From: a virus
Virus record (IMG/VR): IMGVR_UViG_3300021057_000006
Location: 1 to 44,737 of that record
Length of the DNA stretch: 44,737 nt
Direction: 5' to 3' (one strand)
Shown: positions 3,009-44,737 of the stretch, piece by piece
Position numbering within the stretch: position 1 is the first letter of the stretch
Layout of the letters: the number at the start of each line of letters is the position of its first letter
Made by a program: the position numbers and the translations under genes
Notes under the pieces: model-generated
What the model saw: the letters and a program-made list of their open reading frames with translations, nothing else
Told to the model about the DNA's origin: nothing
The model's database searches: none

Positions 3009-3521
3009 ATACGTATTCTTAGCCTGTAGAAGTTGTAATACCACTACCGGTTGTGGTTAGCTGGTTTTATTGCACAGTTTAAGGCTGTTCTAGGTTCAAC
3101 TACCTGCCTACAATGACTATTGTGCGACGTTAAGAACTTGATGGGTTTTACATTGTAATTTAGCGGGTTTTGTCGCCATTTACCCATAGCCCTCCCCCTC
3201 CCATGTCCAGGGCAGAAATGGTTTAGGTATTTCTGCCCGGAGTAGGGACTGAGCTGGTTGCTGTGGGGGAAGGGGTTGGTTGTGTAAACTGGTAGACATG
3301 CCGGGCACCCCATCCCTTTCTCCCCTCCCCGGGGTGTGTAATTATAAAGATTACTTACCACCTGCACGACTTGGACCCTAAAAGACTATTTCCAGGTCCA
3401 AAAGTAGTCCACTTGGAGGGCACCCCATCACAAAACAGGGGGGGGGTAATTTCCGTCCACTAATTACCAGGGACTGCCGGAAGGAAAGCTAACTGTCACC
3501 TGTCACAAGTGTCACAGGGCT
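3009..3521. other. 513-bp non-coding stretch rich in inverted repeats
   Basis: I see no convincing gene on either strand; a 107-codon minus frame (3044-3367) has odd composition. The stretch contains a perfect 10-bp hairpin (GGGCAGAAAT at 3210-3219 with 3229-3238). It also has a pseudoknot-like set: TTGGACC 3371-3377 with 3395-3401, interleaved with GACTA 3384-3388 and TAGTC 3405-3409. A 7-bp hairpin (GGTAATT 3445-3451 with 3462-3468) follows a run of nine G. GGGCACCCCATC occurs twice (3303 and 3418), and TGTCAC three times (3494, 3501, 3510). It may encode a structured RNA or hold regulatory sites. Confidence 0.4.
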
Positions 3522-3704
3522 TTAAGACTTCCCCGACAACACACTATCCATGAACTCTTGCCTGATATACTTCAGGTTGAGAACTAGCTTCTTAACCACT
3601 TCCGCTATCTCCTGTTGCACCCTAAACTTATCATCTAACCCCAACTCCTTCTTCCTCTGGTCTAAATAAGCCTGAGCCATTAGTATTTGGTTTCTATCAT
3701 TCAT
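3522..3704 (-). CDS. Small helical hypothetical protein (60 aa)
   Basis: A charged, probably all-helical protein with no recognised family. It lies just downstream of the DUF3820-like gene on the same strand, so the pair probably share a transcript. It is supported by length, composition and lack of overlap with other genes. The start has only a weak ribosome site. Confidence 0.5.
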   Translation of the reverse strand: MNDRNQILMAQAYLDQRKKELGLDDKFRVQQEIAEVVKKLVLNLKYIRQEFMDSVLSGKS

Positions 3705-3731
3705 AATCAGTTACTTACAATCACAGCGCCC

Positions 3732-4031
3732 CTAAAACAGGTTGTCTGGGGTTGATTTAATTAATTCCACTAACTCACCCCTAGCACATTCAACAGCCGT
3801 AAGGTCTTTGGGCATGGGCTTAAGAGTTTGAGGGATATTAGTTATTTTAACCAATTCAGTCTTAACAAGTGACTTGCGGTATTTGTAGACAGCCTTAACT
3901 GCCTCTCTAAACACCTTGTCATTCCAATTACCAGCAGCCCATTCCAGGTAGTCTAAGGGCACTAGGCCCAACAGTTCACCCTTATACCTGCCACATGGCA
4001 TCCTCCACTTCCTAGCTACTTCAGCTCTCAT
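3732..4031 (-). CDS. DUF3820-like protein
   Basis: A 99-residue protein with MPCGRYKGELLGLVPLDYLEW at residues 11-31, matching the DUF3820 signature M-P-F-G-K-Y-K-G-x3-x-V-P-x-x-Y-L-x-W. In phages this small domain often sits beside exonuclease or recombination genes; no activity is established. The usual Phe is Cys here. The C-terminal 55 residues are extra to the core. The start could be Met11, which would begin directly at the motif. It lies immediately downstream (minus sense) of the putative large RNA. Confidence 0.65.
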   Translation of the reverse strand: MRAEVARKWRMPCGRYKGELLGLVPLDYLEWAAGNWNDKVFREAVKAVYKYRKSLVKTELVKITNIPQTLKPMPKDLTAVECARGELVELIKSTPDNLF

Positions 4032-4039
4032 AGGTATAG

Positions 4040-4560
4040 CTCTTGTTAAGACATAGTTAGTCGCATTTCGTTACTAGGGCCGTTACCGTCCCATCCACTC
4101 CATGCGTCGTTGTTGTGCGGTCGACTTCCGCTCGTTACTTCCGTAAGCTCTCGCTCTCGTGACCGGGCACACTACCCCCATTGCCATGGTAGGTAGTATC
4201 GTAAACCTGCAAAGACTTCGCGCTTACTTCCTATAAGTCCCAGCCTGTTCCGAGTCACTTTAGATTAAGGTCTTTGACTCCCCCGGTTCCCATTGATCGG
4301 AGCTTCCTTAATCGTCTACCCCAGCCCGTAGGCTGAGGGAACGGTATTTCGTTACAGGTACAATCCCCTTACCGGCTATGTCCTGTAATTCGGGTCATGA
4401 TCCTATTGCCAATTAGGATCGGTCGTCCTATGCAAGCTCATCACCCGCATAAGGTTGTTTATCGAGGGTGCCTTACCTATGTTTCAGGATAATCTTTCTA
4501 CCTCGCCGCCTAGTACCCAGCCCTAACCGGATTGTATGTCTTGCCCCGCATCCTAACAAC
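4040..4560 (-). ncRNA. Candidate large structured non-coding RNA
   Basis: The 618 bases between 4032 and 4649 have no gene but carry dense complementary pairs. Hairpins: 4117-4131; 4135-4146; 4171-4197 (6+4 bp); 4319-4338 (8 bp); 4399-4420 (7 bp); arms 4463-4467 with 4501-4505. Two pseudoknot-type interleavings: 4252-4257/4275-4280 with 4263-4270/4306-4313, and 4342-4346/4370-4374 with 4352-4358/4382-4388. Read on the minus strand, one loop is GGAA (GNRA type) and another UACG closed by C-G (UNCG type). A G-U pair in the 8-bp stem exists only on that strand. Size and setting recall the phage-borne GOLLD and ROOL RNAs, but I cannot match it to either. Confidence 0.55.
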
Positions 4561-4579
4561 TTTTCTCAAAATAGTGCAA
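4550..4579 (-). promoter_or_regulatory. Possible promoter of the structured RNA
   Basis: The minus strand carries TTGCAC (4579-4574), an 18-base spacer and TAGGAT (4555-4550), a moderate sigma70-like match placed just before the structured region. The -35 overlaps a 6-bp hairpin (GTGCAA 4574-4579 with 4588-4593). Confidence 0.3.
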
Positions 4580-4649
4580 CATTTTTCTTGCACAATCTTA
4601 CAATAACCCCTAAAAGCAGCTAACAACTTAGAACTAAGGGATAAGAGGG

Positions 4650-4847
4650 ATGATAGATTTTTCGGATAAGGTCAAACGGGAATACTGGCGCAAAGTCGAT
4701 TCGGGAGAGATGAAGCAAGTCAAGATGGGGGTACCACTTACGAGTTATGTGAATTACCACTACGGGACAGGTGCCTTTCTCTCAGATATCAGGGCTAGAC
4801 GCTATAAGGATCAAATTAAGGGGGTTCCAAGTGAAAAGGCTAGCTAA
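4650..4847 (+). CDS. Small hypothetical protein (65 aa)
   Basis: A charged protein of 65 residues with a Tyr-rich middle and a basic C-terminus (RARRYKDQIKG). AAGAGGG lies close before ATG 4650. It overlaps the next gene by 17 bases. No family was recognised; it starts the rightward run that leads to the terminase. Confidence 0.55.
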   Translation: MIDFSDKVKREYWRKVDSGEMKQVKMGVPLTSYVNYHYGTGAFLSDIRARRYKDQIKGVPSEKAS

Positions 4848-5025
4848 GTCTAGGTCTATAGCCAAAAACCTTCCACAAGCCATCCTAGAGCTAGAAAAGC
4901 GCATTCTAGAGCTAGAGGTAGAGGTGGGCAGGCTAAGGTATGAGTCACAGCTAAGGATGCATTACAACCATACTTACGGTTATCCCAAGATCCAGGATGA
5001 GACCAGGAGCTATCCCAGTTTTTAG
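4831..5025 (+). CDS. Small coiled-coil protein (64 aa)
   Basis: I chose GTG 4831 because AAGGGGG ends six bases before it; an upstream ATG at 4771 has no such site. The middle of the product (about residues 14-38) is a regular Leu/Glu heptad helix, so it should form a coiled coil. The C-terminus is Tyr-rich and polar. The role is unknown; the position before the packaging genes allows a small-terminase or adaptor role, but this is a guess. Confidence 0.55.
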   Translation: MKRLAKSRSIAKNLPQAILELEKRILELEVEVGRLRYESQLRMHYNHTYGYPKIQDETRSYPSF

Positions 5026-5036
5026 AAAGGATGATT

Positions 5037-5084
5037 ATGCCAACATTAAAGCAGAAAGTTAAGGGTAAAGGTAAGAAGCGCTAA
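5037..5084 (+). CDS. Very small Lys-rich peptide (15 aa)
   Basis: ATG 5037 follows AAAGGA at good spacing and opens a 15-codon frame, MPTLKQKVKGKGKKR, seven of whose residues are Lys or Arg. An in-frame ATG at 5031 would add two residues. Being so short it may not be a real product, but the ribosome site is good and it fits the gap exactly before the repeat array. Confidence 0.35.
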   Translation: MPTLKQKVKGKGKKR

Positions 5085-5093
5085 GGGTAGCCC

Positions 5094-5169
5094 TACCCTA
5101 CCATGGTAGGGTATCCAAAGGGTATGTATAGGGTATAGAAAGGGTATGCATAGGGTATGGTAAGGGTAT
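5094..5169. repeat. Iteron array: six AGGGTAT at 11-bp period plus 20-bp palindrome
   Basis: AGGGTAT occurs at 5108, 5119, 5130, 5141, 5152 and 5163, exactly one helical turn apart. The first copy forms the right half of a perfect 20-bp palindrome (TACCCTACCATGGTAGGGTA, 5094-5113). The same heptamer with the same spacing is found inside the replication initiator gene (41181-41229). This is therefore probably a binding array for the initiator: a second origin, a control site or a packaging signal. Confidence 0.8.
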
Positions 5170-5459
5170 TAAGACGAAATGTGTTAGTAGACATGGGGGA
5201 GCTTACGAACCTAGTGGGTGCCAAGCTCATTGAGGTTCCAGAAGCCTATAAGCGCATTAATAGCCGTGGCAAGATAGTTCACGTGGCCGATGGCTGTAGA
5301 ATCCTAGATAAGAGCCATATAGGCCGAGAATGTGTTATTGGGGTTATTCGGCATGCCGATAACCGAATCCCTCCTAGACAGGCCAAGGAGATGGGGTTAA
5401 ACGAACACTGGCACTTCATTGTCCCTGAAACCCAGATTCATACGGTGCTCGAAGCATGA
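5157..5459 (+). CDS. Hypothetical protein upstream of terminase
   Basis: A 100-residue protein of mixed alpha/beta type, no family recognised. It contains IVHVADGCRILDKSHIGRECVIGVIRH, likely a small beta-barrel core. ATG 5157 lies within the last iterons and lacks a well-spaced ribosome site; ATG 5193 (residue 13) is the alternative start. If the longer start is used, its first codons are made of the repeat. It is coupled to the next micro-gene by ATGA. Confidence 0.55.
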   Translation: MVRVLRRNVLVDMGELTNLVGAKLIEVPEAYKRINSRGKIVHVADGCRILDKSHIGRECVIGVIRHADNRIPPRQAKEMGLNEHWHFIVPETQIHTVLEA

Positions 5460-5548
5460 ATCCGGCAGACATATTTTATCCTCTGGCTTTTACCCTCATC
5501 GTGGCTACGATCTTCATTATCGTCATTAACTCAACTCCCAGGCTGTAA
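5456..5548 (+). CDS. Single-pass membrane peptide (30 aa)
   Basis: ATG 5456 overlaps the previous stop (ATGA), and the stop TAA shares its last base with the terminase start. The peptide is almost one transmembrane helix (residues 8-24, YPLAFTLIVATIFIIVI) with a short polar tail. This exact nesting between two genes argues that it is real. A membrane role is likely; its function is unknown. Confidence 0.5.
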   Translation: MNPADIFYPLAFTLIVATIFIIVINSTPRL

Positions 5549-7047
5549 TGGTCATTCCTGAGAAATTCGAGAAGCGCTTGGAGTATGACCAGGAGATGCG
5601 TAAGGATTTCGAGACGATCCCCTTAGCGTTCTTTGGTTGTATAGTTAAGTACCCAAAGCAGGCCGAGATCATAAGGACATGGCTCAGGGAGCAGCCTAAG
5701 ATCTGCGTTATTACCGGCTGGAAGCGCACAACTAAGACTTCGATAGGCGCATATATTGGCTCTTGTTGGGGAATTGGGAGGCTTAAGAAGGCATGGCCGG
5801 GTGCCCGAGCAATGGGCATTGAGGAGGACTATAACTGGACTAAAACCTATAAATCAGAGCGCGTTGGACTCATTGGTGGTCGAAGCTTCGAGCACATAGA
5901 TAGCGTCCTACTTAAGCAGTATCAGGAGTTAATTCCAAAGCCATTTGTTCGCGACTGGTATTCTAAGGGCAAACCTTCAATCCACCTATACGGAGGCTGT
6001 CGGTTTGTTATTCGGTCCTATGATCAGATTTTAGAGCAATGGAAGTCAGGCAACTATCAGTTCATCCACCTAGACGAAGAGGCTCCTTGGGAGATGATGA
6101 ATGAGTGCCTAGAACGAACTAGGTTGACTAAGGGCAAAATTCTTATCACGGTGGCTGTAGACGATGCCGATGTCTCTTGGCTTCCAGATGCCTGTCTTAA
6201 TCCATTAAAGACATTTGGAACAGAAAGCTTCCGTCACTTTAAGTTAGGCGTAGAGGACGTGCCTGATGACATATACCCTCCTGAAGAGAAAAGGGCGTGT
6301 TTTGTTAAGTTTGATGGCACAGTGTACGAGCAAGCGGCCAGGAAGGGAGAGTTTGCGTTTGCCAGCGGAAAATGGCTTCCAGAGTTTGATCCGTCAATTC
6401 ACGTAATTAAACCCTTTAAGATTCCTGGTCATTGGCTTAAGTGGAGATTCATGGACGCAGGTACAGCGGCACCGGCGGGTTGTATGTGGGTGGCCATAGA
6501 CCCAGAGAATAAGTGCGCGGTTGGCTACAGGGAGTATTATAAGTCTGGCACAACTATTGATGAGAGGTGTCGTGATATTATCCAGCTCAGTGAAAATATA
6601 AGGAAGCTAGATGGCGACATCTGGGTAGAGGAAGAGTGCGGGGAAAAGTTTGTGTCTACCTTACTAGATTACCATGAGTTTAAGACGGATCAGATTACAG
6701 GTGACGGACTAGATTATCACTACGTGGCAGCCGGTATCAGTGTTCAGCCAAGCACTACGTTAGGTCAAGAGGCCAGGAGGCTTGTTGCCAGGAAGTTCTT
6801 GGAGGTCGATAAGTCTGGTAGTTGTTATGGTAAGCCTGGTAAAGCTAAGTTCTATGTGTTTGAAACTTGTGTGAATTTTATTTGGGAAGTTCAGCGTAAG
6901 TGCGTGAAGCGTCCAGTTAACGAGAGGTCTAGCGTTATTGAGAAGAGGATTCAGAACCGAGATGATCATCTAATAGACTGCTTTGAATACGCTTGTTGTG
7001 AGTTAGAAAACTGGATTAACGATACAGATGCTAGACAGGCGGCTTAG
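5548..7047 (+). CDS. terL: Terminase large subunit
   Basis: The 499-residue ATPase-nuclease that drives DNA into the procapsid. The N-terminal ATPase has a Walker A-like GWKRTTKTS (residues 57-65) and Walker B FIHLDEE (172-178). The C-terminal RNase H-fold nuclease shows FMDAG (Asp303) and the late acidic motif NRDDHLIDCFEYA. Length and layout match terminases of tailed phages. The Walker A is unusual, as Thr replaces the Gly before Lys. It is the first gene of the head module, and the portal follows after 29 bases. Confidence 0.9.
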   Translation: MVIPEKFEKRLEYDQEMRKDFETIPLAFFGCIVKYPKQAEIIRTWLREQPKICVITGWKRTTKTSIGAYIGSCWGIGRLKKAWPGARAMGIEEDYNWTKTYKSERVGLIGGRSFEHIDSVLLKQYQELIPKPFVRDWYSKGKPSIHLYGGCRFVIRSYDQILEQWKSGNYQFIHLDEEAPWEMMNECLERTRLTKGKILITVAVDDADVSWLPDACLNPLKTFGTESFRHFKLGVEDVPDDIYPPEEKRACFVKFDGTVYEQAARKGEFAFASGKWLPEFDPSIHVIKPFKIPGHWLKWRFMDAGTAAPAGCMWVAIDPENKCAVGYREYYKSGTTIDERCRDIIQLSENIRKLDGDIWVEEECGEKFVSTLLDYHEFKTDQITGDGLDYHYVAAGISVQPSTTLGQEARRLVARKFLEVDKSGSCYGKPGKAKFYVFETCVNFIWEVQRKCVKRPVNERSSVIEKRIQNRDDHLIDCFEYACCELENWINDTDARQAA

Positions 7048-7076
7048 CTTCTGACATAACTTAGGAATTGGGGATT

Positions 7077-9152
7077 ATGGGGAAAGAGGGTGTTGATAAC
7101 AAGGACTTGTTCCTTACTGAAGACAAAGGGCGTAAGCCGGTTGAGCCACTTCCATCTGCGTTAAAAGCCAAGGCCAAGGCTCCTGCCAACTTAGCCATCT
7201 ACGATGACAATGGAAACTTGCACCCTGTTGTCGAGCACGTTTTAAAGCTCTCTCGCTCTGCGTATTCAGCGTACTACAACCAGCGATCAGCCCTTGAAGA
7301 AAAGTGGAAGCTTGCTGATGAAATGTACTGGATGGGGTTAAAAGATCATAGGTTATCAGAGCTTACTAGGGCAAAAGTTAGTGCATCAGTGTTTCATCGT
7401 GTTGTTAGGCGTAACCAGGACGGTGCCTATCTCGCAACATTTACCTCTGACATGCCCGTTAAGTTTGCTCCCTCTATTGGAATCTTTGAGGATAGCGAGC
7501 AAAAGAGGAGAAAGGCTATTGTGGCTGAAGCCCTTAACCGAGTGGCTGAATGTCACATGCGTAAAACTGATTTAAAGGGCAAGGCTTATTCTGCTTATCA
7601 CAGTCTTTACAAGAACGGTAATTGCATAGCCTATGTGCCGTATGATTTTGAGGTTGAGAAGAAAAAGCGGTGGGTGACGGTTGATGTCAGTATTCCTGTT
7701 TCCACAGAGGATGGATCACTGAAATACCAGAATGCCGACACAGGAGAGATTTCCGACTCTCCATTTCCTCCCAAGTTGGTTGAAGAGGAATATGATTATG
7801 TGTGTAAGGATGAAACGGGATTTCACAATATCCCCCTCAAGGATTGCTATCTAGATAGCCGGATAAAGGAATTAAATCGTCAAACCTGTTTTCTCCATAG
7901 GTCGGATATTACTAGGGTAGAGATTTGGACCCAGGGTGAGAGTGGAAAGTATAAGAATATTGAGAGGATTACAGAGCTACAGAAGTTTCAGTTGTTCGGA
8001 CAGGATAGCGGCTTTGAGAACCAGGTAAGATCTGATGCCGGACAGACTGTTGTAGACAGCATGAATAGCGAGATGTATGAGCGCTGGATGTCCTGGATTA
8101 TGCTTCCGATGATTAGGGTGAAGCACAACAAGAAGGGTGAGGCTATTGACCTAGAGTGGGATCAAAATGGAAAACCTAGACGCTATCTGATGGAGGTTAT
8201 TGGTGGCCTGATGGGTAACAATGTTGTGGTGAGATTCCAGGAATCACCCTATTGGAGCAATAACATTCCATACCTTGGAGCGCATTCTCACGAGGACAAT
8301 ATTGGTTTCTACGGTCGTGGCTTGGTTAATCTCTTAGAGGATAACTACATCCAAGAGACAGTGGCCAAGGGCCAGCTCATGGATAATCGCACCCTCATGC
8401 TCTTTAGGCCAATGAAGAGAATTGTTGGCAGGTGCAAGACCAAGGACATGAAGATTGTTCCAGGAAAAGTCTTTGATCTTACTTCCCAAGAAGGGCTTCA
8501 GGAGATGGCTTATAGCGATTTTACGGGGACCATTTCCAATACCCTTTCGTATTTGGAGGAAGACTCTGAGAAAACAGCCCAAACCCCTCCGTTCACTCTT
8601 GGGGAGAATATGGGATCTAGGACGAGCGCAACTGAGTTTGCAGCCATCCGGGATTCTTCGAGTGCTCCGGCGTTAAACGACATCAAGAGAATCAACATGA
8701 TGCTAGCCGGTCAGTACCTTAAGAAAGTTAAGGAGTATGCCCCACAGTTCTTGGATCAAGATGTGTTGATTGAGCTTATGGGAGATGACGGAAGGGAGGC
8801 CATCGCCATCATCAAAGCCGATGACTTCAATGCCGATATGTATGTTGAAGAGGTGTCCGTGCAGGAGTTTGAAAATAAGGCCACGATGCGCCAGATGTTA
8901 ACAAACTTAGTCCAGACAGTGACGAATCCCATTTTTGCTCCATTTCTCAATGTTCCAGGTCTCCTGTCTAGGATCTTCCAAACGTTTAGTTCGGTGTTTC
9001 CTAATCCAGAGGAGATTATCAATAAAGATCCGAATATACAGCTAGCGCTAGATCAATATAAGTCTCAGAAGACTTTGCCTAGTGAGAGGACAGTGGGTCA
9101 GGTTGAGGCACAGCCTATGCAGGAAGTGATGGGGGCTGCCGGAGGAGCTTAA
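7077..9152 (+). CDS. Portal protein (podovirus type)
   Basis: At 691 residues this fits the large portals of podoviruses. It would form the dodecameric ring at one capsid vertex through which DNA passes. Its place directly after the large terminase and before the scaffold and capsid genes, and its long mixed alpha/beta core with a helical C-terminus, support the call. I prefer ATG 7077 (GGGGA just upstream) over TTG 7068. The C-terminal region is Gln/Ala-rich and probably disordered. Confidence 0.82.
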   Translation: MGKEGVDNKDLFLTEDKGRKPVEPLPSALKAKAKAPANLAIYDDNGNLHPVVEHVLKLSRSAYSAYYNQRSALEEKWKLADEMYWMGLKDHRLSELTRAKVSASVFHRVVRRNQDGAYLATFTSDMPVKFAPSIGIFEDSEQKRRKAIVAEALNRVAECHMRKTDLKGKAYSAYHSLYKNGNCIAYVPYDFEVEKKKRWVTVDVSIPVSTEDGSLKYQNADTGEISDSPFPPKLVEEEYDYVCKDETGFHNIPLKDCYLDSRIKELNRQTCFLHRSDITRVEIWTQGESGKYKNIERITELQKFQLFGQDSGFENQVRSDAGQTVVDSMNSEMYERWMSWIMLPMIRVKHNKKGEAIDLEWDQNGKPRRYLMEVIGGLMGNNVVVRFQESPYWSNNIPYLGAHSHEDNIGFYGRGLVNLLEDNYIQETVAKGQLMDNRTLMLFRPMKRIVGRCKTKDMKIVPGKVFDLTSQEGLQEMAYSDFTGTISNTLSYLEEDSEKTAQTPPFTLGENMGSRTSATEFAAIRDSSSAPALNDIKRINMMLAGQYLKKVKEYAPQFLDQDVLIELMGDDGREAIAIIKADDFNADMYVEEVSVQEFENKATMRQMLTNLVQTVTNPIFAPFLNVPGLLSRIFQTFSSVFPNPEEIINKDPNIQLALDQYKSQKTLPSERTVGQVEAQPMQEVMGAAGGA

Positions 9153-11458: not shown

Positions 11459-12418
11459 ATGTCTACTGTAATCACAAATAACATGCTGAGTTTGATCGAT
11501 GCGCGGCTTAAGACCTGCGTATTAGAGACAAACGCTACAATTCCGCTTATCGGTTCTAAGATCGTTAAGGAAAAGAAGACAACCAGCAAGTACGAGATCA
11601 TGAATCGTATTGTTGGCGTTGGTGAAGCCGAAGAAGTCGCCGAGGGTGCTGTTTATCCGAAGAAGGCTATTAAGCAAGATACCTCTAAGACGGTAAACAT
11701 GAAGAAATTCGGTTTCGTGATCGATGTTTCTCGTGAGCTTATCGTTGATAATCTTTTTGGGCCTATCCAAGACGATGTGGCTAAGGCTATGAAGAACGCC
11801 ATGCTCCAGACTAAGGAGCGCCGAATCCTTAATATGCTCAATAACGGCTTCACGGCCACTACTGGGCAATTGGCTCAGGATGGTTTGAGCTTGTTCAATA
11901 CGGCTCACGTATTAGTCCAAGGTGGAACGCAAAGCAATCGTGCTTCGGTTAATGCTGCATTGGACCTAGATTCTTTGTGGATCGGACGCAATACGATGCA
12001 AACCACAAAAGGCAATTCCGGTCTGTATGACGCGATTTATCCAGCTAAGTACCTCGTGGTTCCTCAGGAATTAGAGAGACGGGCACATGAACTTGTGAAG
12101 TCTGAATGGATTCCTCAGTCTACTGAGAATACGGCTAACGTGATTGGCTCTATTGCCGCTAAGCTAGAGGTGCTAACAAGTCCTCTTTTGAGTTCGACTA
12201 CGGCATGGTTCTTAATTGCTGATCCGTCTGCGGTGTTGGAGTTCTCGCTCCGATTCTTCAATCGTGAGGAAATGAGTATTCATTCTCTGTTTAACATCCA
12301 GGGCAACACTGAACTCGGAAACGCAATTGATAAGGATACTTATTCTTGGCGTGTTCGCGAGCGTTATGAATGCGACACTCCTACTTGGTATGGAGTGTAT
12401 GGCAATGTTGGAGCTTAA
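11459..12418 (+). CDS. Major capsid protein (HK97 fold)
   Basis: A 319-residue protein with features of HK97-fold major capsid proteins. It has a helical N-arm and an E-loop region (about 50-85), followed by GLSLFNTAHV near 142-151, the LVVPQELERRAHEL segment and the closing P-domain and A-domain strands with TAWFLIADP. It would assemble the icosahedral shell. A strong ribosome site (AAAAGGGAG) and a hairpin after the gene suit high expression. There is no long N-terminal delta domain, in keeping with a separate scaffold gene upstream. Confidence 0.85.
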   Translation: MSTVITNNMLSLIDARLKTCVLETNATIPLIGSKIVKEKKTTSKYEIMNRIVGVGEAEEVAEGAVYPKKAIKQDTSKTVNMKKFGFVIDVSRELIVDNLFGPIQDDVAKAMKNAMLQTKERRILNMLNNGFTATTGQLAQDGLSLFNTAHVLVQGGTQSNRASVNAALDLDSLWIGRNTMQTTKGNSGLYDAIYPAKYLVVPQELERRAHELVKSEWIPQSTENTANVIGSIAAKLEVLTSPLLSSTTAWFLIADPSAVLEFSLRFFNREEMSIHSLFNIQGNTELGNAIDKDTYSWRVRERYECDTPTWYGVYGNVGA

Positions 12419-20257: not shown

Positions 20258-21246
20258 AATGGGTAAAAGGGTTGGCGATTTTATTTGCGGCAATGCTCCT
20301 CATTGGGGCAGTTGGCGACACGTTTAGGGAAGTGCATACCGATAACTCGGGTAACGTATTAAATTCTCCTCTCACGTTCTCTAATCAGGTGTCTATGGTA
20401 ACGACACCAACATCTCCACAGCATGTAGTGAGATACCAAGATCATACGAATACCAGCGCGGCATACCTAACATCAGGCAACTTGTCTATATCTAGGTTTA
20501 ATAGCGGCTCTGGGGCTAGTGCCACAACCTTTTGGAGAGGAGATGGAACCTGGGGAAATGCATCTACGGCTGACATCTATGCGGCATCCAACAACACTTT
20601 CAGGGGAGTTAATGTGTTCTCCAATCAGGTAAGCATGCTGAATGTTACAAATATCTTTGGAACTACCAATGTCGCAACTCGCCTAATCATTAGATCTATG
20701 AGGGAGAATGTTGGGGGCAACATGAAGGCCATTGAGCTTGTGAACTCAAACAATGTTGTTCACGGCTGGATTGGTTGGAGGGCTAATGAAATTGGTGGTA
20801 TCCACATATCTGCGGCTGAGGCGGGATCTTTACCCGGAGATGTTGGCCATAGCTATATTAATCTTGGATCTACTCAATTTGATTTCAGGTATAGAGACTA
20901 TGGAGGCATCTCCACGGCCTCTGGTGGTAATATCATTGGGTTTAACGGAAACCAAGTCCATATCGGCTCAGGCGGCAGCTACATGGACTGGATGAAGACA
21001 GCTACAGCCTCACTAGACTTTCCTAGTATAGCTCCCGGTAATGCGGCTGACTTGACTATCACTGTAACCGGGGCAACCACAAACGATATTGTGGTTCTTG
21101 GTAGGCCGACTGATGAGAGTTCATTTCTCCATACAGAGGGGCTTGTTACGGCAGTCGATACCGTAACGGTGCGGGCATACAACTATAGCAGTAATGCGGT
21201 TGACCAGGCGTCAAAGGTTTATCGGGTTAAGGTAACTAATTTCTAA
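20254..21246 (+). CDS. Tail-fibre-like protein with signal peptide
   Basis: A 330-residue protein. Residues 5-19 (KGLAILFAAMLLIGA) form a signal peptide or anchor. A fibre-type segment follows, with LTSGNLSISRFNSGSGAS and TFWRGDGTWG near 75-105, a repeat motif very common in phage tail fibres. The C-terminal part is beta-rich (ADLTITVTGATTNDIVVLG). A host-binding fibre is the best guess. The exported N-terminus is odd, because phage fibres normally assemble in the cytoplasm. Confidence 0.65.
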   Translation: MKWVKGLAILFAAMLLIGAVGDTFREVHTDNSGNVLNSPLTFSNQVSMVTTPTSPQHVVRYQDHTNTSAAYLTSGNLSISRFNSGSGASATTFWRGDGTWGNASTADIYAASNNTFRGVNVFSNQVSMLNVTNIFGTTNVATRLIIRSMRENVGGNMKAIELVNSNNVVHGWIGWRANEIGGIHISAAEAGSLPGDVGHSYINLGSTQFDFRYRDYGGISTASGGNIIGFNGNQVHIGSGGSYMDWMKTATASLDFPSIAPGNAADLTITVTGATTNDIVVLGRPTDESSFLHTEGLVTAVDTVTVRAYNYSSNAVDQASKVYRVKVTNF

Positions 21247-21247
21247 T

Positions 21248-21544
21248 ATGAGAAAACTATTACTTCTATTCTTATTTCCAATGTCACTACTAGGGATAAC
21301 TGTTTCCGTGGATTATCCGCTACACAACATTAAGATTGATGGATCAAATGCCGGTGGCGCTCCCGAGGTTAAAGCCAATTGGCCACAACATTGGAGTTCG
21401 GTGTCATCCCACATTCAGGGACGGATTTCTAGTGACTTTGCCAACCCAAATGTAAGTCGTGCGGACATCAGGAAGATGATTAATGCGGCTAAGGCCGTAG
21501 GAATTTCAGTGGACCAGAATATCGACAATCAAGTGCCTCAATAG
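21248..21544 (+). CDS. Secreted-type hypothetical protein (98 aa)
   Basis: Residues 1-18 (MRKLLLLFLFPMSLLGIT) are a signal peptide. The mature part has a His/Trp-rich stretch (PQHWSSVSSHIQGR) and ends in a short helix. It starts two bases after the fibre-like gene and stops directly before the large nozzle-like gene. Not recognised; it could be a fibre partner or a periplasmic factor. Confidence 0.5.
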   Translation: MRKLLLLFLFPMSLLGITVSVDYPLHNIKIDGSNAGGAPEVKANWPQHWSSVSSHIQGRISSDFANPNVSRADIRKMINAAKAVGISVDQNIDNQVPQ

Positions 21545-29672: not shown

Positions 29673-30083
29673 TCACTTCTCCTTCGCATCCAACTTAATA
29701 ACCCAAAGTCCGTTGGACTGCGTGACTTTAGGAGGGTATTTCGTGACGATGGTGGCATTGGTTGTGTTAATGACCTTAAACTGCACCTTAAAGGAATCTA
29801 TCAATTTGCCGTAAGCTCTGACCTGTGTTTCTGGAGCATCATCAGAGAGATAAATCCGACAAATCTCAGGAGGAAATTCAATGTCTAATGGAGGACTATA
29901 ATAAATCACGCCCTGGTTAAAGAGATTTGAGTATTCTATAAATCCTGTCTTTGCTGGTTCTGTTTTAACAGTTTTAAAATGCGTGCTTACCCCACACTTT
30001 TCCTTTTGTGACATTTGATAGATCTGGTCTCCTATGACCACAGATGCCAGGACTGTCATGAGTAGTAGTATTTTTAGTTTCAT
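29673..30083 (-). CDS. Exported hypothetical protein (136 aa)
   Basis: Residues 1-18 (MKLKILLLMTVLASVVIG) are a signal peptide or anchor; the rest is a polar beta-rich domain with two Cys (30 and 75). An early protein sent to the periplasm could act in superinfection exclusion or envelope modification, but this is only inference. A long stem-loop covers the sequence just before its start (30092-30170). Confidence 0.6.
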   Translation of the reverse strand: MKLKILLLMTVLASVVIGDQIYQMSQKEKCGVSTHFKTVKTEPAKTGFIEYSNLFNQGVIYYSPPLDIEFPPEICRIYLSDDAPETQVRAYGKLIDSFKVQFKVINTTNATIVTKYPPKVTQSNGLWVIKLDAKEK

Positions 30084-30091
30084 AAAAATTC

Positions 30092-30170
30092 TCGACTGGC
30101 ACCGAAGTTTATTGGTTATTCACTTCCTGCCCCCATTCATCACGGAGGCTAGCGAAAGTGTGCCAGTCGA
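30092..30170 (-). promoter_or_regulatory. Structured 5' leader: perfect 11-bp stem-loop
   Basis: TCGACTGGCAC at 30092-30102 is exactly complementary to 30160-30170, enclosing 57 bases with a nested CACTT/AAGTG pair. On the minus strand the base of the stem is nine bases before the start of the exported protein gene. It may be a cis-regulatory leader or a small RNA. Confidence 0.45.
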
Positions 30171-30189
30171 TAAATTGGTGAGATATTCG

Positions 30190-30435
30190 TCATTTCTTAT
30201 TAGAAAAATAATCAAATAATCCACATCCAGCTAGAATCATACAAATCATAAGCCCCATTCCAGTAGCATCCCAAAATCCCTTTGACACATTCATTCCCTT
30301 TTCCATCTCACGAATCTTATCCCCAATATTTATTTCCCTATACCCAAGCTCTTTTAAGATGAGAGTGGCGTTAACTCGCACCTGTTTGGATTGAGCCTCT
30401 TGCTTTGTGACTATATTCAGTTCATTTGTCTTCAT
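30190..30435 (-). CDS. Small protein with C-terminal membrane helix (81 aa)
   Basis: A charged helical N-terminus and one hydrophobic segment near the C-terminus (about 59-76, GMGLMICMILAGCGLFDYF). The LAGC resembles a lipobox, but it lies at the wrong end of the protein for a lipoprotein. Tail-anchored topology is likely. Unknown function. Confidence 0.5.
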   Translation of the reverse strand: MKTNELNIVTKQEAQSKQVRVNATLILKELGYREINIGDKIREMEKGMNVSKGFWDATGMGLMICMILAGCGLFDYFSNKK

Positions 30436-40837: not shown

Positions 40838-41623
40838 TTGAAGAAGAGGTTCACCGACACTGAAAAGTGGCAAGGCTGGTTCCGTAAGCTGAGCATAGAA
40901 CATAAGTTGCTATGGGTATACATTAACGACGCCTGCGATTGCACTGGAGTCTGGATACCAGACTTTGAACTAGCGGCATTTAAAATAGGTTGCGAAATAG
41001 ACCCAAAAGCGGCCACGGAAGCCTTTAAGGATCACATTGAGGTACTTAAAGATGGAAGGTGGTGGATTAGCGGTTTTATCGGATTCCAGTACGGTGAATT
41101 ATCAGAAAATTGCAAGCCACACCTAAGCATTCTTAAGGCCCTAAAGGGCCATGGATTACATTTAACACACAATTCTCGTAAGGGTATACAAAGGGTATAC
41201 AAAGGGTATCCAAAGGGTATACATACCCTTGAAGAAAAAGAAAAAGAAAAGGAAAAGGATAAAGAACAAGAAAAAGAAAGGAGAATCAGGTTTAAGGATA
41301 GGTTGAATAAGCTTTTCAATAGAAGGGATTCAACGGGTTGGAGCGTTAAGGAGGATTTGAAGTTGAGTGAGGTCCTGGAAAGACCAGAGGCCGACCTGGA
41401 AATAGATGAGATTGAGCGTTACTACACGTCAGGGGCTAAGTTTTTGAGACAGGACATTATGACCCTGCTCAACAACTGGACTGGGGAACTAGACCGGGCA
41501 AGGGCTAGGCTTGAAACCCCTACCAAGAAGGAAAGGTTTAGGTCGTATGAGGAGTATGAGGCTGCCATGGCTGAGAAAGCTCAAACAGGGCTAGAAGTTG
41601 TGAAGGAGGATGAAAATGAGTGA
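40838..41623 (+). CDS. Replication initiator (lambda O-like organiser)
   Basis: A 261-residue protein. The N-terminal 95 residues (FRKLSIEHKLLWVYINDACDC, then GVWIPDFELAAFKIG) resemble the winged-helix DNA-binding domains of phage replication organisers. The centre is a charged Lys/Glu linker (about 130-150). The C-terminal helical part precedes and probably loads DnaB, encoded next. TTG 40838 is the start, with AAGGAGG six bases away. The gene carries iterons within its coding sequence (41181-41229), as lambda O carries its origin. Confidence 0.72.
   Translation: MKKRFTDTEKWQGWFRKLSIEHKLLWVYINDACDCTGVWIPDFELAAFKIGCEIDPKAATEAFKDHIEVLKDGRWWISGFIGFQYGELSENCKPHLSILKALKGHGLHLTHNSRKGIQRVYKGYPKGIHTLEEKEKEKEKDKEQEKERRIRFKDRLNKLFNRRDSTGWSVKEDLKLSEVLERPEADLEIDEIERYYTSGAKFLRQDIMTLLNNWTGELDRARARLETPTKKERFRSYEEYEAAMAEKAQTGLEVVKEDENE
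41181..41229. repeat. Origin iterons inside the initiator gene
   Basis: AGGGTAT occurs at 41181, 41192, 41203 and 41214 (11-bp period), and an inverted copy ATACCCT is at 41223-41229. A purine-rich stretch of about 55 bases follows, which could be the unwinding region. This is the same plan as lambda ori within gene O. The same heptamer array occurs at 5108-5169. Confidence 0.82.
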
Positions 41624-42896
41624 TGTCCCGCACAACAAGGATGCAGAGGTGGCTATTATTTCCCGGCTACTCACATCGGATAATGTCGATGAGATTTTCA
41701 ATGCCCTCAATGCTGATCACTTCTTTATCCGTTCCCATCGCAAGATCTTTAGGGCAGCACAGACCGTGTTTAAAGCCAGTAAGCTCGTAGACTTGATCAC
41801 GGTGAGTCAGGAGCTTCGGGACCGTGGCGAAATTGAGGAGGTGGGTGGAGACTATGCGCTAGGGCAGTTAGTTGCCCCCAGGTTCCTGGGAAACTTAGAG
41901 GAGTGCGTTAAAGAACTTAAGAAGGCGCACACTAAGCGCAAACTCCTAGAGCTATCGGCTGACATCCAAATGATGCTTAATGAGGAGCTAGAGGAAACCC
42001 TGCCACAGTTTGAAGAGAAGATTCAGTCCATGCTCGAAGATAGTGGCGAGGAGGATAATGACATTCCCCGGGCTATAGAGGAGTTGGAGGAAGAAGTTCA
42101 GGCCATGCTCAGGGGTGATACCGTCACCGGTATTCCTATTGGCATTAACTCCATTGATGGCTGTTTTGGTGGGCTTCGTAAGGCTCACTACTACGCTGTT
42201 GCTGGTAGGCCGGGAACAGGAAAAACAAGTCTTGGAACTCAGGCGGTGTTGTATGCAGCTCAGAGGGGGAAAACTTGCTTGGTAATTTCCATTGAAATGA
42301 CCAGAGATCAAATTGTTTCGCGCATGGCCTGTCAGCTAGAACAACTCAACTACGACCTGATTTGCAAGAGAAAGGCTGATAAGGAAACGATTTTAAGGTA
42401 TCAGGCGGCTTATAGGAAGCTCAATAGACTGCCGTTGTTTGCTAGATGTGTTTCAATCATTAACGGGCCTCAGGTTAGATCAATGATCCGCAGATATGCC
42501 CGGAGGTATCAAGTGGAGTTGGTTGTGATCGATTACATTCAGCTCATCGATATTGGCGGTAAAGACATGCGAAGGAATGTGACTCAAGCTTCTCAGAACA
42601 TTCTCATGGCCTGCAAAGAAACAGGAGTAGCGGCCCTGGTGTTAGCCCAACTCAGTAGAGAGAGCGAGAGGGAGGGAAGGCCGAGACTGGGACACCTCAA
42701 AGAGTCAGGACAGATTGAGCAAGATGCTCATGGCGTGATTCTCATGTGGAGAGACGATGAAGTTGAAATGCTCAACCCATGGGACCCGGTGCCGATCATT
42801 GCCACGATTGCCAAGAACAGGAATGGGCCTAGTGGGTATGACCAAAAACTCTGGTTTAATGGAGATAGGCTGACTTTTAGGGAGAGGAATACATGA
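41616..42896 (+). CDS. dnaB: Replicative DNA helicase, DnaB family
   Basis: A 426-residue protein from ATG 41616 (AAGGAGGA five bases upstream; 41610 is too close). It has a DnaB N-terminal domain (6-105: HNKDAEVAIISRLL), a Walker A AGRPGTGKTS (196-205), Walker B LVVIDYIQL (302-310) and the C-terminal LRESGQIEQDAHGV-like arginine-finger region. It would be the ring helicase of the phage fork, loaded by the upstream initiator. It overlaps that gene by eight bases. Confidence 0.92.
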   Translation: MSDVPHNKDAEVAIISRLLTSDNVDEIFNALNADHFFIRSHRKIFRAAQTVFKASKLVDLITVSQELRDRGEIEEVGGDYALGQLVAPRFLGNLEECVKELKKAHTKRKLLELSADIQMMLNEELEETLPQFEEKIQSMLEDSGEEDNDIPRAIEELEEEVQAMLRGDTVTGIPIGINSIDGCFGGLRKAHYYAVAGRPGTGKTSLGTQAVLYAAQRGKTCLVISIEMTRDQIVSRMACQLEQLNYDLICKRKADKETILRYQAAYRKLNRLPLFARCVSIINGPQVRSMIRRYARRYQVELVVIDYIQLIDIGGKDMRRNVTQASQNILMACKETGVAALVLAQLSRESEREGRPRLGHLKESGQIEQDAHGVILMWRDDEVEMLNPWDPVPIIATIAKNRNGPSGYDQKLWFNGDRLTFRERNT

Positions 42897-43066: not shown

Positions 43067-43287
43067 AATACTCGGAACTGATATCCTCGAAAATTGAGTT
43101 AAAGCCCTTCAATATTCCAACAGAGATGGCTGTTATTCTGATAGGGCAAGAAAAACTTTTTAACAAGATGGTCTCAGCAGGGTGGATTAAACCAGTAGTT
43201 GACAAGAATCGATGTAGACTATGGAGCTATGAGGATGTGAAGACGTGTGCCTTCAGGCTCAAGAATGGGGAGTATCCTGAAAATTAG
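43063..43287 (+). CDS. Excisionase-like winged helix protein (74 aa)
   Basis: A 74-residue MerR/excisionase-type domain: MAVILIGQEKLFNKMVSAGWIKPV, then RLWSYEDVKTC, the usual helix-turn-helix followed by a wing with a W-x-Y-x-D-V signature. It lies beside the integrase and overlaps its stop by four bases on the other strand. It could direct excision as Xis, or be another regulator. Confidence 0.6.
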   Translation: MKYSELISSKIELKPFNIPTEMAVILIGQEKLFNKMVSAGWIKPVVDKNRCRLWSYEDVKTCAFRLKNGEYPEN

Positions 43288-44384
43288 CTTAGGACATGAA
43301 TATCTTTGTCACCCTTCGCGAGCTTGGCATAGTGGTGTTGCACTACGCGAACATCGTCACCCAACCACTCCGCAATCTTGTAAATCGATACGCCTCGACT
43401 CGCGAGAATAGAGGCAAATGAATGTCGCATTACGTGGGGCGTTACCCATTCGCACTTCTGAGACTTCATGTACTCCGTAAACGGTCGTCTAAAGTCATAT
43501 CGGTATCGCCACTTTCGGTGTTTGAGGTCGGCGTAGAGAACGAAGTCCAAGGGATCTAGTCCTTTAAGGTATTCTTTGAGAAAGGCTTTGAATGTCGGTG
43601 TCAGTGGAATAGCCCTCTCCTCCTTGTCCTTGATGAGAAACGAGCGCTCACCTTCTCTCAGTCTATCACCTTTAGCCTTGCGCACGTAGATCATGCCATG
43701 TTTGAGGTCAAACCAATCCCTGCGAGACTCCACAATTTCGTTGCGTCTTAACCCGGCATCGAAACCACAGTGGAGAATGAAGCGCAGTTCGTCATTCGGG
43801 GCCTCAGTGATTAATTTATTTTTAAGAGCCTTATCACACCACAGAATGCGTATCCCTGACTTCTCAAACTCCGGCCTTGGAACTGGGTTTGTCACCCTCA
43901 CTCTCTCAACCTCCACAGCCCAGCGCATGAAGACGCGAATGGCTCCTAGGTAGCCCATGATTGTGTTGTGGGTACGGTGTTTAACCCGATCATTGTCTTT
44001 TGAGATATTCTCGGTTCTCAGTAGTTCGCAGTAGTCCTCAATGTGCCTCGGATTGATATTCACCAAGGTGGTGTTCTCTGGAAGTGAATTGATGAAATGT
44101 TTAAGGATAGGTCGCTTATCAGAGATACTGCGAGGGGAGTATTTACCGGTCCTCTGTTGGTAGCCCAGGTATCGCTCTAGATCGTGCTCTAGGCTGGTGC
44201 CATGGTTTTTGACTATGGGGTTTACCTGAATTTCCTGAACCCTCTTAACGGCTTCAGATGGGTTTTTTGTTTCTAAATTTACCCAAAGCCTATTGCCTTT
44301 CACCATTTTGGAGTACCAATACCAGCCTTTAATGAGATAGATGTTTTTCACTTGGAGCCTGAATTTGTTAGCTTTGACTAACAA
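43284..44384 (-). CDS. int: Tyrosine recombinase integrase
   Basis: A 366-residue phage integrase. It has an N-terminal arm-binding segment (YLIKGWYWYSKMVKGNRLWVNL), a SAM-like core-binding domain (60-165) and the catalytic domain with Arg213 (GLRRNE), Lys238, His317 and Arg320 (HVMRHS), a His at 350/351 and nucleophile Tyr352. TTG 44384 lacks a ribosome site; GTG 44351 with AGG upstream is an alternative start that trims 11 residues. attP lies just beyond the start. Confidence 0.88.
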   Translation of the reverse strand: MLVKANKFRLQVKNIYLIKGWYWYSKMVKGNRLWVNLETKNPSEAVKRVQEIQVNPIVKNHGTSLEHDLERYLGYQQRTGKYSPRSISDKRPILKHFINSLPENTTLVNINPRHIEDYCELLRTENISKDNDRVKHRTHNTIMGYLGAIRVFMRWAVEVERVRVTNPVPRPEFEKSGIRILWCDKALKNKLITEAPNDELRFILHCGFDAGLRRNEIVESRRDWFDLKHGMIYVRKAKGDRLREGERSFLIKDKEERAIPLTPTFKAFLKEYLKGLDPLDFVLYADLKHRKWRYRYDFRRPFTEYMKSQKCEWVTPHVMRHSFASILASRGVSIYKIAEWLGDDVRVVQHHYAKLAKGDKDIHVLS

Positions 44385-44521
44385 ATTGCAATTCTATTTT
44401 GAGCCATTATGAGCCATTGAGAGGCAAAACGATGGCGGTCGCGACGAGGCTCGAACTCGCAACCCCCGCCGTGACAGTATGGAGTTCCCCATAGCCGTGA
44501 TAACACAAAACGACTAACAAA
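44364..44521. other. attP site with arm-type repeats
   Basis: A tRNA-Asp 3' half (44433-44477) is flanked by copies of GACTAACAAA at 44376-44385 and 44512-44521, and an inverted TTTGTTAG at 44364-44371. TGAGCCATT is repeated at 44400 and 44410. This is the usual build of attP: a core matching the end of a tRNA gene between integrase arm sites. The sequence is just upstream of int. Confidence 0.75.
44433..44477 (-). tRNA. 3' half of a tRNA-Asp(GTC) gene (attP core)
   Basis: Read on the minus strand: anticodon loop CTGTCAC (GTC), anticodon stem GGCGG, variable GGGTT, T-stem GCGAG, loop TTCGAGC, stem CTCGT, acceptor strand CGCGACC, discriminator G, then CCA. The G73 and GTC identify tRNA-Asp. 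The 5' half is absent (the anticodon stem has no partner), so this is not a working gene. On integration it would restore the 3' end of the host gene. Confidence 0.8.
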
Positions 44522-44566: not shown

Positions 44567-44737
44567 ATGAAACTAACAGGGCAAGAACTGAAGGAAGTCT
44601 TAAAACGTAACCCATCGCTAGCCGCCCTGAATACCGAGACCGCTACCCTGAGTAGGGTAAACCCCTTAAAACCCGCTATAACTAATCCTGGTGCGAAATT
44701 AGGGCATTCCCTGATTGACTCACATTCCAAGAAATAC
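44567..44737 (+). CDS. rusA: RusA-family resolvase (5' part; continues at 1)
   Basis: ATG 44567 opens the frame that continues through the junction into the RusA product ending at 487. Of its 57 codons in the window, 14 whole codons (and part of a 15th) lie before the terminal repeat. The extension holds L-K-R-N-P-S-L-A-A-L, a helix seen ahead of several phage RusA proteins. A purine-rich AAGGGCAAGGGG lies just upstream. Confidence 0.85.
   Translation, partial: MKLTGQELKEVLKRNPSLAALNTETATLSRVNPLKPAITNPGAKLGHSLIDSHSKKY
44611..44737. repeat. Direct terminal repeat, right copy
   Basis: Identical to 1-127 and therefore duplicated by the circular closure. Confidence 0.95.

Follow-up and report, generated by a model that had tools for sequence, protein, structure and literature searches.

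We propose that a temperate phage genome carries, in a stretch devoid of genes, a folded RNA of about 530 nt that would be transcribed leftward, from the minus strand. The window analysed, that is, the whole stretch of DNA, is the virus record IMGVR_UViG_3300021057_000006 (44,737 nt, G+C content of 45%), and the features discussed below are collected in the table. The proposal rests on observations that we made directly, namely strand-specific foldability, hairpins capped by GNRA and UNCG loops, the absence of a gene, and the absence of a match in Rfam. A folded minus-strand RNA is the best reading of the region because of its stability, the asymmetry between the strands, the tetraloops, the lack of a gene, and the leading position in a leftward unit. 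That it is a large structured RNA read leftward, probably stand-alone and without known kin, is a view to which we give even weight. A structured minus-strand RNA of any kind is, in our estimate, about two to three times likelier than chance folding of intergenic DNA.

Table. Features of the candidate RNA, its neighbourhood, and the phage genome (RNA position 1 = 4565, RNA position 531 = 4035).
Feature	Coordinates	Strand	RNA positions	Remark
Candidate structured RNA	4035-4565	minus	1-531	about 530 nt
Possible closing helix, 5' strand AAGACAUA	4535-4542	minus	24-31
Possible closing helix, 3' strand UAUGUCUU	4048-4055	minus	511-518
Nested long-range helix (possible), 5' strand UACUAGG	4509-4515	minus	51-57
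11-bp hairpin	4428-4454	minus	112-138
7-bp hairpin GAUCCUA/UAGGAUC	4399-4420	minus	146-167	probability about 0.8
Hairpin UUACAGG/CCUGUAA	4352-4388	minus	178-214
UACG tetraloop hairpin	4319-4338	minus	228-247	closed by C-G
GAUUAAGG	4306-4313	minus	253-260
Multi-branched domain	4145-4305	minus	261-421	three hairpins inside; in MFE and centroid
Hairpin UUAC-GGAA-GUAA	4135-4146	minus	420-431	GNRA loop
GUAA tetraloop hairpin GGGACGGUAACGGCCC	4077-4092	minus	474-489	stem of 2+3 bp; 3' domain
99-aa ORF, Pfam QSregVF_b (PF12843)	3732-4031	minus		directly downstream of the candidate RNA
60-aa ORF	3522-3704	minus		second in the leftward unit
Divergent intergenic region	4566-4649			leftward promoter would have to lie here
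Large terminase	5548-7047
Portal	7068-9152
Major capsid protein	11459-12418
DnaB-type helicase	41610-42896
Integrase	43284-44384	minus

The gap between the flanking ORFs (4032-4649, 618 nt) separates a leftward gene pair from rightward genes starting at 4650. The sequence-only reading had seen no gene there, and this holds, since the gap contains no ORF of at least 60 aa and stops interrupt all six frames; a trace of a long reading frame was also sought in the six frames of the stretch and none was found. The gap covers most of 4071-4752, which is the longest run in the window where none of the frames stays open for 70 codons, in a genome that is otherwise gene-dense. The candidate RNA occupies the first position in the unit of the leftward gene pair. 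No family was assigned to the 60-aa ORF by the family search. As the divergent region lies upstream of this leftward unit, it is there that the leftward promoter would be required, and a convincing sigma-70 promoter was sought in 4566-4649 and none was found. The inverted repeat GTGCAA-N8-TTGCAC is present at 4574-4593, flanked by the two copies of a 10-bp direct repeat (AAGTTGTTAG / CTAACAACTT), one in the 5' end of the RNA (4553-4562) and the other at 4620-4629, 67 bp apart. Such direct and inverted repeats in a divergent promoter gap may be operators. Another poorly coding stretch, with convergent genes on either side, was noticed at 3009-3520; it includes a strong hairpin (gggcagaaa...tttctgccc, about 3211-3239), and the 530-nt window that starts at 2710 and extends into it gave z values of -3.4 to -3.8 on both strands.

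When the minus strand of 4035-4565 was folded, the minimum free energy (MFE) was -173.8 kcal/mol (about -172 to -174 across runs), with a z of -2.97, and the fold was matched by 1 of 100 shuffles and, in a second run, by 3 of 300. The plus strand of the same interval was ordinary (MFE of -139.9, z of -0.87), and an energy difference between minus and plus as large as the -32 kcal/mol observed was reached by 1 of 100 shuffles. The many stems described by the sequence-only reading are thus borne out, at most 1% of the shuffles being as stable, with p-values that are optimistic because the stretch had been chosen on account of its stems. Minus-strand hairpins with a GNRA or UNCG loop and at least 4 pairs numbered three, against none on the plus strand; shuffles had 0.5 on average, and at least three in 15 of 1000. 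Two of them are the UACG hairpin closed by C-G and the GGAA hairpin that the sequence-only reading had pointed out, both confirmed on the minus strand, and the third has the GNRA loop GAGA at RNA 414-417. In a scan of the minus strand with 530-nt windows, whose ranking is rough owing to the 12 shuffles used for each window, the region came 4th of 168, behind the windows at 2710, 10395, and 20730. Its absolute energy (-172) was lower than that of all the minus-strand windows scanned in the second half of the genome. The earlier preference for an RNA from the minus strand is upheld by the strand asymmetry and by the tetraloops found on that strand only. Three other minus-strand windows are at least as stable relative to shuffles, which counts against the folded RNA. 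The foldability signal is real but moderate, and the stability, good but not unique, is suggestive. Elsewhere in the genome, the 530-nt window that exceeds its shuffles most in minus-strand stability (z of -5.73) is at 20730-21260, where a 330-aa gene ends, and a 180-nt window at 30061-30240 reached a minus-strand z of -5.98.

The predicted architecture is that of a central multi-branched domain surrounded by hairpins. This domain is closed by AAGCUC/GAGCUU and ACCGGG/CCCGGU, pairs that are exact inverted repeats, and it was the source of the covariance model R1. Two long-range helices might close the molecule: the outer one (RNA 24-31/511-518) has 8 perfect pairs but is outside the unconstrained MFE, with a probability of 0.01, and the nested one, in which UACUAGG pairs with 4072-4078 (RNA 488-494), has the same probability of 0.01 in the unconstrained ensemble. 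Several loops are complementary to other parts of the molecule. That of the 11-bp hairpin could pair with 4391-4399 (RNA 119-127/167-175) in a possible pseudoknot, and the loop of the hairpin at RNA 178-214 contains both GGAUUGUA, complementary to 4529-4536 (pairing RNA 30-37/200-207), and CGGUA, complementary to 4343-4347 (RNA 219-223). In addition, GAUUAAGG is complementary to CCUUAAUC in the loop of the hairpin at 4252-4280 (RNA 286-314), so that RNA 253-260/296-303 may form another pseudoknot. The interleaved pairings announced by the sequence-only reading do exist in 253-260/296-303, 30-37/200-207, and 119-127/167-175, but at a frequency near chance: perfect helices of at least 8 pairs were as numerous in 26 of 300 shuffles, a slight excess only, and loop-loop helices of at least 6 pairs left after the MFE were equalled in 39 of 300, which is not a clear enrichment. 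Since these helix counts are close to those of shuffled sequences, we consider the pseudoknots as possible pairings.

The folding could have a simpler origin if the region were intergenic DNA, either not transcribed or unstructured, whose foldability comes from chance and purine bias and which would hold operators or divergent promoters, signals for replication or packaging, or the remains of a gene. The inverted repeat and the 10-bp direct repeat of the adjoining gap are in line with this, as are the loop-loop helices at chance level, the other windows that fold equally well, and the lack of a relative of any kind. However, strand-specific stability and tetraloops are unexpected for a DNA element, the six frames of the region show no remnant of a long reading frame, and a search for an iteron-like array gave none; GTAACG, a 6-mer found four times, was dropped as an iteron because 13% of shuffles reach four copies. 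Altogether, we find an origin in intergenic DNA unlikely, although it deserves serious attention. A packaging RNA similar to the pRNA of phi29, working with the terminase about 1 kb away, was also considered, and the large terminase gene is indeed nearby. The candidate is nevertheless on the strand opposite to the terminase, in a divergent unit, the phi29 pRNA is about 174 nt and thus far smaller than the candidate, and no Rfam family matched, which makes this role very improbable.

Another rival reading is a cis-regulatory 5' leader of the 99-aa and 60-aa genes, in which pairing of the 3' end beside the presumed ribosome-binding site would control translation. As drawn, the RNA stops 3 bases short of the 4031 start codon, it is co-directional with both genes, and no terminator-like site was found between the RNA and the 99-aa ORF. 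Moreover, AACAA, which closes the outer helix (RNA 519-523, probability of about 0.5 to 0.96), adjoins AAGAG, the presumed ribosome-binding site at about 4042-4046. On the other hand, a leader of 530 nt would be a long one, Rfam gave no match to a riboswitch or leader family, and the QSregVF_b family downstream gives no clue to a ligand. This reading stays alive because the RNA directly adjoins the start codon of the 99-aa ORF, and a stand-alone RNA is favoured over it mainly because of size; we regard a leader as rather unlikely. The stand-alone RNA that we prefer would have its promoter between 4566 and 4650 and be transcribed leftward, and we infer both this transcription and the exact ends. 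It would be made along with the two small downstream genes or cut out of their transcript, and most likely it would act through its own fold, and so as an RNA beyond a leader, like other large RNAs of phages whose function is unknown.

The phage proteins have distant relatives only. The best match of the capsid among named phages was a phage from Manatee Spring, with 34% identity, and the identity of the terminase to the named phages listed did not exceed 23.5%. In viral contigs, single-protein queries with TerL or the capsid gave no relatives, while a query with a capsid alignment gave 80 loci, all with at most 34% identity. Homologues of the RNA were searched for with DNA sequences and with two covariance models, R1 and R2, derived solely from the sequence of the window. 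Against phages, blastn of the RNA region gave chance matches only (the best of 23 nt), and against plasmids it gave no homologue. Exact RNA patterns hit 22, 6, and 19 stretches of viral contigs, with a similarity confined to the pattern. The RNA was absent from the 80 capsid-related loci searched with blastn, R1, and R2, and there was no homologue in about 380 Verrucomicrobiia genomes searched with DNA, R1, and R2, nor in 388 Verrucomicrobiota genomes searched with DNA. The big noncoding gaps of three related phages had no similarity to the RNA, and four QSregVF_b-like loci were unrelated to the RNA region. An R2 match in one genome (E of 0.03), within a 725-aa open frame, and 28-nt matches in three genomes, within long open frames, were discarded as chance. 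As R1 and R2 come from one sequence, their reach is limited and their empty answers are weak evidence. That no relative of the RNA turned up hardly counts against it, given that the collections searched contain no near relative of the phage either.

The sequence at 1-130 is found again at 44608-44737, a terminal direct repeat of about 130 bases. From these shared ends, the genome is taken as closed, with about 44.6 kb, the record being circular or having redundant termini. Besides the proteins of the table, an exonuclease is encoded. Two neighbouring minus-strand ORFs at 850-1523, both of phrog_1273 (function unknown), are probably a tandem duplication. Beside the start of the integrase, at 44432-44485 on the minus strand, lies the 3' half of a tRNA-Asp(GUC) gene, including CCA, as expected of the attP core of an element that would integrate into a tRNA-Asp gene. 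A 25-base piece of this attP tRNA matched just three genome contigs, every one in a tRNA-Asp gene and all from Verrucomicrobia/Verrucomicrobiia MAGs, whose copies differ by one base from the full tRNA-Asp 3' part; no viral contig matched the attP tRNA sequence. The three MAGs belong to one small order, represented by six genomes in the collection searched. Integrases 55-58% identical to that of the phage, with E values down to 2.3e-129, were found in two of these six genomes, each beside a tRNA gene other than that for Asp (Ala, Val, or Gly), which suggests one integrase family with differing tRNA targets. From the tRNA-Asp match and the integrase relatives, we infer that the host is most likely a member of this small uncultured Verrucomicrobiia order.

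Few large structured phage RNAs are known. Represented by one sequence only and lacking relatives, the candidate is at present a lead, still short of a class. With its GNRA- and UNCG-capped stems, multi-branched centre, and several possible loop-to-strand pseudoknots, and with a temperate phage, probably of an uncultured order of Verrucomicrobiia, as its carrier, it could tentatively, and with somewhat more doubt than confidence, be taken to represent an undescribed class. If true, this would add a class from a phylum whose phages are poorly sampled as is the phylum itself, and would help to show whether such RNAs are a strategy general among phages. The sequence-only reading could match it neither to GOLLD nor to ROOL, in agreement with the Rfam search: cmscan of 3400-5200 with all 4227 families gave no match at curated thresholds or at E of at most 5. 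Recognisable members of GOLLD, ROOL, OLE, and group I/II introns are ruled out by this result. The candidate is like group I/II introns in its size, possible pseudoknots, and tetraloop-capped stems, but it is intergenic and not within a gene, and no intron family matched. OLE is known as a bacterial RNA rather than a phage RNA. The candidate resembles it in size and multi-stem architecture, OLE being 577 nt in Clostridium acetobutylicum (PMC12286853), but is phage-borne and did not match the OLE model. The size and setting of GOLLD and ROOL had been invoked by the sequence-only reading, and the phage setting is indeed shared, whereas the tRNA genes are missing, ARAGORN having found none in the window. 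In GOLLD, lengths above 800 nt are common, the 3' region is conserved, and tRNA islands frequently lie close by (PMC12286853). The candidate, in a gap of 618 nt, differs from such members in size, in its lack of tRNA genes, and in the absence of a model match. ROOL, of 659 nt in a solved example, is often near tRNA islands in phages and prophages (PMC12286853), and again the candidate has neither tRNA genes in the window nor a covariance-model match at E of at most 5. What it shares with GOLLD is to be a large phage RNA of elaborate structure, and with ROOL a comparable size, a phage or prophage origin, and multiple predicted pseudoknots; those two RNAs form RNA-only cages, in ROOL homo-oligomeric nanocages, whose function is unknown (PMC12286853).
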